Shown one piece after another: positions 31,304 to 33,021 of a DNA stretch of 33,021 nt. The position numbers and the translations under genes are program-made. The notes under the pieces were generated by a model. It did no database searches. It was given only the letters and a program-made list of their open reading frames with translations, and was not told where the DNA came from. The number at the start of each line of letters is the position of its first letter. The stretch's first letter is position 1. This DNA is from an uncultured Selenomonadaceae bacterium (GTDB lineage Bacteria; Bacillota; Negativicutes; Selenomonadales; Selenomonadaceae). Where the stretch lies: assembly GCA_905236725.1 (NCBI GenBank), contig CAJOCT010000011.1:1-33021 (forward strand). The letters run 5' to 3'.

Positions 31304-31366
31304 ATGATGTTATCCATTTTTTTAGTTATCTTACTAACTATTTGTACTTTAATAATTTGCAAGTAA
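31304..31366 (+). CDS. Micro-ORF 2: 20-residue single-membrane-span peptide (toxin-like candidate)
   Basis: ATG 31304 to TAA 31366 encodes MMLSIFLVILLTICTLIICK, almost wholly hydrophobic with one terminal Lys, like small type I toxins of the Ibs kind in size and character (family membership not claimed). It shares the leader GCGTxACCA and ATGTTATCCAT with micro-ORF 1. Its ribosome-binding site would be the GGGGG of the terminator stem just upstream, so folding of that stem could hide it. A long hairpin and T-run follow. No antisense RNA is proven. Confidence 0.5.
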   Translation: MMLSIFLVILLTICTLIICK

Positions 31367-31367
31367 T

Positions 31368-31446
31368 CAGCCCGCTCACCAAAAAAATTTTTATGAAAGA
31401 AGGTGAACTCCCCTGAAAAAAATTAGTAATCGGGCGGGCTGTCTTT
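31368..31446 (+). terminator. Long structured terminator after micro-ORF 2
   Basis: CAGCCCGC (31368-31375) pairs with GCGGGCTG (31434-31441), and inside it TCACC (31376-31380) pairs with GGTGA (31402-31406). TCTTTTT follows. The large loop could also be the target of an antisense RNA. Confidence 0.6.
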
Positions 31447-31469
31447 TTAAAAAATTTGGAGTGTTGATT

Positions 31470-31693
31470 ATGTGGGAACTCAACTCTGACGGAGTGATTG
31501 CGGAAAATGCGGATACGGGCAAGGGCGATGTATAAAATTTTCGTCAAAGTCGGCGCATATATCGCGGCGTTGCCGAAATCCGTACATTCTTGAATATATG
31601 GACGAGATACGCCGCATAAATCCTGACATAAATTCAAATTTGAAAGTCGGCGACGAAATAAAAATTCAGTACAAGGAGCGGAAAAATGATTGA
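31470..31693 (+). pseudogene. Frameshifted small gene with a LysM-like C-terminus
   Basis: ATG 31470 has GGAG upstream and reads MWELNSDGVIAENADTGKGD before a stop. The product continues in the next frame as YKIFVKVGA (from 31531) and in the third frame as ISRRCRNPYILEYMDEIRR and INPDINSNLKVGDEIKIQ, ending at 31693. The last part matches the end of a LysM-type repeat (NPDI followed by LKVGDEIKI). Two one-base changes, near 31530 and 31558, would restore about 75 residues. LysM units of this kind occur in phage tail and cell-wall proteins; the assignment rests on a short segment. Confidence 0.5.
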
Positions 31694-31699
31694 CGATGC

Positions 31700-31768
31700 A
31701 TGAAGTTTGATTCTGTTGGCTGTGAATGTGCCGATTGCGACGAAAGTTGGGACTACGAAAATTTTTAA
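31700..31768 (+). CDS. Very short Cys-rich ORF, possibly a gene fragment
   Basis: ATG 31700 to TAA 31768 encodes 22 residues with a CECADCDESWDYENF ending. An ATG at 31686 with AAGGAG upstream (31673-31678) reads only MIDDA in another frame before stopping, so a frameshift may separate a proper start from the Cys-rich part. Not recognised. Confidence 0.25.
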   Translation: MKFDSVGCECADCDESWDYENF

Positions 31769-31778
31769 CTGAAAAAAA

Positions 31779-31815
31779 GGCGGCGAAAAAATTCTATCGC
31801 TATAGAATCGCCGCC
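31779..31815. repeat. Strong hairpin upstream of the mini-gene chain
   Basis: GGCGGCG at 31779-31785 pairs with CGCCGCC at 31809-31815, and ATTCTAT (31791-31797) with ATAGAAT (31802-31808) around CGCT. A small A-rich bulge interrupts the left side. No T-run follows, so a terminator role is uncertain. Confidence 0.6.
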
Positions 31816-31837
31816 AAAATTGAAAGGGCTGATGTAA

Positions 31838-32125
31838 ATGATAATTGAGGGAGTAGTCGTCGAGGCTGACGAAATTGTTTTCAGAGCCGACGAACTCAAA
31901 AATTATGTGGAATACGCGAAGGCAAACAGCGACGGAACTTTGAAAAAAATCCGAATAAAACTTTGTGCCGACGGAAAAGTTGACATTGACTATAAATCCA
32001 ACGTGCCGTTTGAACGTATCAGAAGAATCACGGGCTACCTGACTGGCGACCTTAATTCTTGGAACAATGCGAAAAGAGCGGAAGAATCGGAACGCGTTAA
32101 GCACGGAGTTGATGATTATGAATGA
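31838..32125 (+). CDS. Free-standing NrdD-like glycyl-radical tail protein
   Basis: 95 residues, good start (GAAAGGG before ATG 31838). The C-terminal third, FERIRRITGYLTGDLNSWNNAKRAEESERVKHG, has the pattern found at the very end of class III anaerobic ribonucleotide reductases, in which the glycine of R-V-x-G-Y-L carries the radical (here G66). The rest of the enzyme is absent. The first 55 residues (DEIVFRADELKNYVEYAKANSDG, then KLCADGKVDIDYKS) are not recognised and lack the zinc cysteines of NrdD. It could be a spare-part protein, as GrcA/YfiD is for pyruvate formate-lyase, or a phage accessory protein. It overlaps the next gene by 8 bases. Confidence 0.6.
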   Translation: MIIEGVVVEADEIVFRADELKNYVEYAKANSDGTLKKIRIKLCADGKVDIDYKSNVPFERIRRITGYLTGDLNSWNNAKRAEESERVKHGVDDYE

Positions 32126-32468
32126 AAAATTTTTGTCGATACAAGTGCGAAATGCCAAATCAACTCGGCGCAAGAAGGCTTACGCAAAAGAAATTCCTGC
32201 GAAAGTTTTACAAGAAATTTTGTCGATGACGGAAGTCGACGGAGAAATTACGCTCATTCATTCGGGCTCAAAAATTCTTTTCACTTTTGAAAATTTGCTT
32301 GTCACGACAAGAATTATCGATGGCGTATTTCCGCCGTATGAAAGAGTTTTTCCGAAAGAAAATGAAATCGCAGAAAAAATAACGATCGGAATGAGTAAAT
32401 CGCTTGCGCCTGTTGATTTTCAAGCCGAAAATTTTCATTACGTCGTTACGCCTGTGAGGAGGTCTTGA
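32118..32468 (+). CDS. Shortened DNA polymerase III beta-clamp (DnaN)-like protein
   Basis: 116 residues against about 370 for DnaN. KEIPAKVLQEILSMTEVDGEITLIHSGSKILFTFENLLVTTRIIDGVFPPYERVFP matches the second half of the middle clamp domain. After EKITIGMSKSL the text jumps to APVDFQAENFHYVVTPVRRS, which matches the extreme C-terminus of a clamp (the PxR ending). Domain 1 and most of domain 3 are missing, yet the frame is uninterrupted. The start ATG 32118 lies inside the end of the preceding gene. A complete sliding clamp cannot be formed; it may be a remnant of a phage clamp or a mini-protein that binds clamp partners. Confidence 0.6.
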   Translation: MNEKFLSIQVRNAKSTRRKKAYAKEIPAKVLQEILSMTEVDGEITLIHSGSKILFTFENLLVTTRIIDGVFPPYERVFPKENEIAEKITIGMSKSLAPVDFQAENFHYVVTPVRRS

Positions 32469-32469
32469 G

Positions 32470-32640
32470 ATGAAAATCATTGAACCGTCAGCGGTATTGA
32501 TGAGAGATTTCGACGGCGCAGAAGTTATGAAATTTCTTGAACTTTGCGGCAGAACGGCTTATCAGTCGAAGAAAAATATCACCAATGATTCAGCGGAAAA
32601 ATTTATGAAAAATTTAATAAGGAGCGTGATTGAGAAATGA
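32470..32640 (+). CDS. Truncated flavin-dependent thymidylate synthase (ThyX) N-terminus
   Basis: 56 residues from ATG 32470, preceded by GAGGAGG at 32456-32462. FDGAEVMKFLELCGRTAYQSKKNITNDSAEKFMKNLIRSVIEK follows the N-terminal pattern of phage-type ThyX (LELCGR, then the NLI segment). ThyX usually continues with a GHESVLEH-like stretch; here NLIR passes directly to SVIEK and stops, so a few codons are missing and everything after is gone. The active-site and FAD motif RHR is therefore absent and the product cannot be an active synthase. Its stop overlaps the next start (ATGA). Confidence 0.6.
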   Translation: MKIIEPSAVLMRDFDGAEVMKFLELCGRTAYQSKKNITNDSAEKFMKNLIRSVIEK

Positions 32641-32843
32641 CGGTTGAGGAACGTTTTAATATTCTTGAAAAAAACTTAATCAAACTTTCCGCGCATTGTT
32701 TTGAAATGAAAAGAAAACTTAACGCAATCAATAAAAAATTTTCCGTTCGTGATGACGAATTGGCTGAACGACTTGAAATAATCGACAAAAAATATTTCCA
32801 CGCGATGAAAAACCTCGTCGAATATATAAAAAAATCGGAATAA
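32637..32843 (+). CDS. Hypothetical coiled-coil protein in the mini-gene chain
   Basis: 68 residues, almost wholly alpha-helical by composition (VEERFNILEKNLIKLS, DDELAERLEIIDKKYF), not recognised. It starts within the ThyX-like stop and uses AAGGAG at about 32619-32624. The overlap suggests coupled translation with the preceding short genes. Confidence 0.6.
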   Translation: MTVEERFNILEKNLIKLSAHCFEMKRKLNAINKKFSVRDDELAERLEIIDKKYFHAMKNLVEYIKKSE

Positions 32844-32934
32844 AATTCTGTGATAAAAATAAAAAACGCCGTCCCCCGACAGCGCACTTTGATTTTAATT
32901 TCTGAAAGTTGTGTTGTCAAGGAGCGGTATTTTT

Positions 32935-33021
32935 ATGACATTTGAGGAATTGAATATTGTGCGGACACTAAAAAAGAAAATTTCGGACGAAGAACAAAAA
33001 CTTCAAGGATTTAGAGAATTG
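32935..33021 (+). CDS. Start of a small helical protein, runs off the window
   Basis: ATG 32935 with AAGGAG at 32919-32924. The first 29 residues (TFEELNIVRTLKKKISDEEQ and on) are charged and helical and resemble the many small phage proteins of unknown function. The 91-bp gap before it holds an imperfect hairpin (CGCCGTC / GACAGCG, about 32866-32885). Confidence 0.5.
   Translation, partial: MTFEELNIVRTLKKKISDEEQKLQGFREL

Follow-up and report, generated by a model that had tools for sequence, protein, structure and literature searches.

A short glycyl-radical protein of Quinella and its phages as the predicted trans-acting subunit of a split class III ribonucleotide reductase

Near the end of a contig from a bacterial draft genome lies a short gene, ORF A, which probably encodes the trans-acting glycyl-radical subunit of a split class III ribonucleotide reductase (RNR), the anaerobic enzyme for DNA precursors, whose radical part is sensitive to oxygen. 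Phages carry this gene too, and the two ORFs that follow it, B and C, are most likely dead remnants. We hold this reading with good confidence on the basis of sequence, synteny, and phylogeny; complex formation, radical transfer, and the benefit to the phage are the parts of it that we infer. The window, by which we mean the whole stretch of DNA analysed (33,021 nucleotides), is the entire contig C11 of a 2.65 Mb draft genome in 210 contigs. The source genome belongs to Quinella, family Selenomonadaceae, and the same draft contains several related prophages.

The block at the contig end consists of four consecutive ORFs on the forward strand: A (31838-32125, 95 aa), B (32118-32468, 116 aa), C (32470-32640, 56 aa), and D (32637-32843, 68 aa). 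The coordinates confirm the tight packing described in an earlier, sequence-only reading of this DNA, with an 8-bp overlap between A and B, a 1-bp gap between B and C, and a 4-bp overlap between C and D. That reading also gave each ORF its own ribosome-binding site, which is plausible at least for C and D, since the Shine-Dalgarno-like sequences GGAGG and AAGGAG lie ahead of them, respectively. Positions 31598-31693 (+) hold the 3' stub of a LysM-like gene, whose counterpart in contig C135 has 105 aa. On the other side, the next phage gene (MTFEELNIVRTLKK..., 32935-33021, +) is present only by its start before the contig end cuts it; its homologue is found at 4801-5250 of C113. The region 31351-33008 aligns piecewise and colinearly with other prophage contigs of the same genome: C135 for the LysM region, C158 and C179 for ORF A, and C113 for dnaN, thyX, and the later gene. 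ORF D gave weak library matches only, with no convincing relative and none in the loci compared, and ORF B, too, has no relative among those loci for its first ~25 codons.

Only the last residues of ORF A match NrdD (PF13597 positions 532-562, E 1.2e-7). This segment (32009-32104, +) holds the glycyl-radical loop and the C-terminal tail and aligns with residues 707-738 of the Prevotella copri NrdD chain in structure 8p23. The predicted radical glycine, Gly66 (codon GGC, 32033-32035, +), lies in an invariant RITGYL motif and aligns with Gly711, which carries the radical in P. copri NrdD (PMC11226230); because the chain in the crystal has 4 extra residues, we infer the numbering offset. In an alignment of 67 related sequences, 16 positions are invariant, and ORF A keeps all 16, Gly66 included. 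The ten-stranded barrel, the active-site cysteine, and the zinc site of NrdD were not found in ORF A, as the Pfam match is confined to the NrdD end. The Pfam scan detected NRDD and no glycyl-radical domain of the pyruvate formate-lyase (PFL) type. The remainder of the protein (31838-32008, +) is an N-terminal domain that is not part of NrdD, is conserved in relatives, and is predicted by AlphaFold2 to be beta-alpha-beta-beta (pLDDT 76-83). The model as a whole is of moderate quality, with a pLDDT of 71 overall and ~60 at the radical loop, and a Foldseek search with it against the PDB gave no significant match. The same two-part protein, N-terminal domain plus radical loop, occurs in many Selenomonadaceae and Clostridia. 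The sequence-only reading had counted ORF A among genes cut down from enzymes. We rejected this, since A is, as far as its sequence tells, a complete member of an old conserved family of short proteins with their own N-terminal domain. A further copy of the gene, at 119-317 of L013 (from C179), has a one-base insertion in a run of A that shifts the frame, and it looks broken.

The host NrdD lacks the very part that ORF A carries. The chromosomal NrdD of the window genome ends in CPHCHRKEIISGTFHIERLK and a stop codon, shortly past the zinc site, with no radical glycine loop. Its active-site cysteine is the site of an intein-like insertion of ~350 aa (G000:C2:43649-46507; L098, L099), and a comparable length (1030-1149 aa) is found in several other NrdDs of Quinella. 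A hidden radical exon was considered and rejected, as none was found in any frame within ~900 bp downstream of the host nrdD, and a profile search found none genome-wide. In the other Quinella genomes, a set chosen by kinship only, every main NrdD whose end is covered stops at Pfam position 531-541 of 562. Three of them (G015:C5, G016:C62, and G021:C16) have an additional full-length NrdD of ~780 aa beside the truncated one, twice on one G015 contig.

A truncated main NrdD was also found in 18 of 18 further Selenomonadaceae genomes (G060-G077), which cover Selenomonas ruminantium, S. noxia, S. flueggei, S. massiliensis, S. montiformis, Anaerovibrio, Megamonas, Pectinatus, Mitsuokella, Schwartzia, and Quinella; these were chosen for carrying the short gene and so show co-occurrence, not frequency. 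Three other families of the same class (G044, G048, and G056) combine an NrdD ending at 530-538 with the short gene. The truncation spares the catalytic part: the Pectinatus NrdD aligns with 8p23 through MGCRTR up to the zinc site, keeping the barrel and the active-site cysteine, and the zinc cysteines are kept in every Selenomonadaceae NrdD tail that was read. In a tree of the barrel, the truncated NrdDs form two separated groups with full-length kin near each. This tree requires three changes, and on its well-supported branches alone the radical domain must have been lost at least twice. Such repeated loss would be expected if a copy in trans already did the job.

The short gene (~95 aa) is present in 35 of 37 Quinella genomes and was not found in G014 and G028, both of which are incomplete. 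Truncated nrdD is followed by the short gene and then by nrdG in Pectinatus, Megamonas, Schwartzia, and Anaerovibrio RM50, and the short gene overlaps nrdG by 14 bp in Pectinatus, Megamonas, and Anaerovibrio RM50. Overall, nrdG begins within ~220 bp downstream of the short gene at 24 Selenomonadaceae loci and one Oscillospiraceae locus. In Quinella, an mscS-like neighbour of the short gene is kept and nrdG is located elsewhere. NrdG itself is present in 59 of 60 relatives. Host copies of the short gene are under purifying selection (dN/dS 0.03-0.09).

No large subunit of a class I or II RNR was detected in any of the 37 Quinella genomes, while control genomes were positive as expected. The same search was negative in S. 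ruminantium (two strains), S. noxia, S. flueggei, Selenomonas sp. FOBRC6, S. massiliensis, Anaerovibrio RM50, and Schwartzia. Most of the genomes are metagenome drafts, and the absence rests on its repetition across them. With no class I or II enzyme detected in Quinella or in several cultured Selenomonas, the truncated NrdD and the short protein together are expected to form the sole RNR of these bacteria. Clostridia with the short gene mostly have a full-length NrdD, so in them the short protein would have to be a spare part or have some other role. Three Oscillospiraceae/Ruminococcus drafts (G083, G084, and G086) have the short gene, yet neither an NrdD beyond it nor a class I or II RNR was found; they are either incomplete or have an unusual RNR.

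In at least 15 Quinella genomes, every copy of the short gene that was found is interrupted directly 3' of the radical-glycine codon. The inserts that were read base by base fall precisely at the junction of the Gly and Tyr codons. They come in two sizes, 203-249 nt and 663-739 nt, with 751 nt in the viral contig L090, and the long ones encode an HNH endonuclease. The copies in C158 (L012), C179 (L013), and L090 are interrupted at this same site, and the window copy is uninterrupted. Insert-bearing loci are L154-L162, L193-L203, L218, and L090, along with the ends of C158 and C179. The inserts end in a terminal G, mostly preceded by U, as in group I introns, and Rfam gave no match to them at the gathering or a relaxed threshold. 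Their exact position, the terminal G, and the HNH ORF favour introns, possibly of group I. They presumably splice, given that most of these genomes yielded no other RNR.

Phages carry the short gene as well. Stand-alone viral ORFs of 49-134 aa end in sequence like FERIRRITGYLVGTLDRFNNAKRAEERDRVKH, which corresponds to the end of NrdD. Among 48 viral loci, 34 have the short stand-alone form and 10 a full-length NrdD, and the remainder are interrupted or cut. About one third of the short viral ORFs have an extra N-terminal domain of ~55 residues like that of ORF A. Some viral loci have a truncated nrdD with the short gene nearby: L041, where the two overlap by 4 bp and nrdG follows, L048, L059, L070, and L081. 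In other phages, among them the family in the window, no nrdD was seen in the examined flanks of the short gene. The nrdD of the isolated Eggerthella phage EL753P1 lacks the radical loop as well. In that phage, a short ORF after nrdD (L273 2873-3081; OP172808.1 6964-7172) ends in FERIRRI, and the remainder of the loop lies in another frame, which may be a frameshift, an error, or recoding.

We propose the following mechanism. Host NrdD, which ends ahead of the radical loop, would supply the catalytic barrel, the active-site cysteine, and the zinc site, and the short protein would dock in the vacant radical-loop site. NrdG would then place the radical on the glycine of the short protein (Gly66 in ORF A), from which it would move to the barrel cysteine and start reduction. 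In Selenomonadaceae, the split form would be the normal enzyme. In bacteria with a full-length NrdD, the short protein may instead serve as a spare part after cleavage by oxygen, as YfiD does for pyruvate formate-lyase. Phages could keep dNTP synthesis running via the short gene. In the prophage family of the window, the gene shares a cassette with dnaN and thyX; the prophage in the window itself has been worn down by deletions. The sequence-only reading had suggested, as one of two options, that the short forms are kept for a purpose, for example as decoys or repair parts for host enzymes. The repair-part idea comes near the mark for ORF A alone. In this host, whose NrdD is without a radical domain, the short protein is predicted to be a required subunit and more than a repair part.

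A bolder form of this proposal can be put forward only tentatively. Throughout Selenomonadaceae and in phages, the class III RNR might be obligately split, with a radical subunit that can be exchanged. Phages might then bring in a subunit of their own and so seize control of the host RNR; one aim could be to restore it once oxygen has damaged it, another to change how it is regulated. No description of a split class III RNR was found in open-access papers, the scope of our literature search. If the split enzyme is real, an essential enzyme of common gut, rumen, and oral anaerobes has its radical on a separate, replaceable protein, and radical formation and catalysis can be studied on separated parts. 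Annotation would be corrected as well, since these short ORFs exceed the Pfam NRDD cut-off and are easily mistaken for NrdD fragments. Also, the phage copies suggest a route by which phages could support dNTP synthesis in anaerobic hosts.

The phage protein could instead be a decoy or inhibitor that blocks the radical site of host NrdD or exhausts NrdG, and thereby stops dNTP synthesis of the host or of rival phages. It would compete with the host short protein for the same site, and phage and host copies do differ (ORF A is 58% identical to the host copy in C42). However, neither the radical glycine nor any other invariant residue has been lost from the phage copies, and the pairing of the short gene with a truncated nrdD and nrdG in some phages fits supply over inhibition. 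We therefore consider a decoy improbable.

ORFs B and C differ from ORF A in being deletion remnants of prophage dnaN and thyX. The resemblances given in the sequence-only reading hold for A (the NrdD end), B (DnaN), and C (the ThyX start), but B has lost the DnaN N-terminal domain in addition to the missing middle. ORF B (PF02767, E 2.1e-6; phrog_947, E 1e-10) aligns with C113 in two pieces, 32192-32368 with 7011-6835 and 32369-32466 with 6597-6500. The 5' part of dnaN and exactly 237 bp (79 codons) from mid-gene are gone, leaving ~90 DnaN residues in place of three clamp domains. The dnaN of C113 has at least 221 aa and is interrupted by the contig end. ORF B had no match when searched against phage and viral sequences. 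ORF C had no library match, and its DNA is 93% identical to the 5' end of the intact thyX of C113 (202 aa). The alignment (32470-32606 with C113 6230-6094) ends after ~45 codons, well short of a full-length ThyX (~200 aa), and unrelated, non-ThyX sequence follows. The 93-aa ORF that separates dnaN and thyX is absent from the window. An independent viral contig, L090, has the intact order of short gene, dnaN, small genes, and thyX. Thus the suggestion of a phage module eroded by in-frame deletions stands for B and C, which are colinear with the intact genes of C113 and the L090 cassette, and fails for A. The LysM stub is likewise a product of prophage erosion by deletions. The open frames of B and C need no selection, since the 237 bp lost from the middle of B divide evenly by three and C merely reads on past its ThyX part until it meets a stop codon.

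It is similarly doubtful that the truncations of B and C are an assembly artefact joining fragments of several prophages. The window does reach the contig end in a fragmented draft with related prophages, but the pieces differ from C113 by ~5-14% in DNA and so are not copies of it, and gene order is preserved over several successive junctions. Less probable again is that all four ORFs are the debris of one prophage, with A the surviving 3' end of nrdD. ORF A does sit amid remnants, and Pfam matches only the NrdD end. This explanation is already largely refuted, though, as the N-terminal domain is conserved in dozens of phages and hosts, the intact L090 has the short gene and not nrdD at the same place, and ORF A compared with exon 1 of the C158 copy has a dN/dS of 0.21. 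That the short forms of B and C are retained for a function of their own is the least credible: their frames are open and their dN/dS values against C113 are low (0.28 and 0.11), but we rejected these values as a sign of selection on the short forms because most of the divergence is probably older than the deletions, B is without a whole clamp domain, C keeps ~45 of 202 ThyX residues, and neither deletion form, when sought in other strains, was seen among 60 related genomes.

Among known systems, prophage decay by deletions accounts for B, C, and the LysM stub, which are colinear pieces with clean deletions, but not for A, which is complete. Split class II RNRs (NrdJa/NrdJb) likewise take a C-terminal part from a separate gene (PMC5704485; PMC9669993). 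Their separate part is a cysteine-rich re-reduction domain, whereas here it is the class III radical carrier. Class III NrdD/NrdG (P. copri 8p23 and phage T4 1h78) has the same barrel, active-site cysteine, zinc site, NrdG activase, and an identical radical loop motif; the difference is that the loop proposed here is on a separate polypeptide. A parallel in form is GrcA/YfiD and T4 Y06I, which, like the short protein, are small, stand-alone, and end in a glycyl-radical loop, with a phage-borne example here too (PMC8683613). In contrast to GrcA/YfiD, the loop here is of the NrdD and not the PFL type, the N-terminal domain has another length and matched no known fold, the large enzyme of Selenomonadaceae is permanently without its own loop, and the short gene is clustered with nrdG. 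YfiD and Y06I are the spare-part precedent for PFL, and the authors asked about other enzymes (PMC8683613). If the split RNR proposed here is real, it would answer that 2021 question on spare parts beyond pyruvate formate-lyase.
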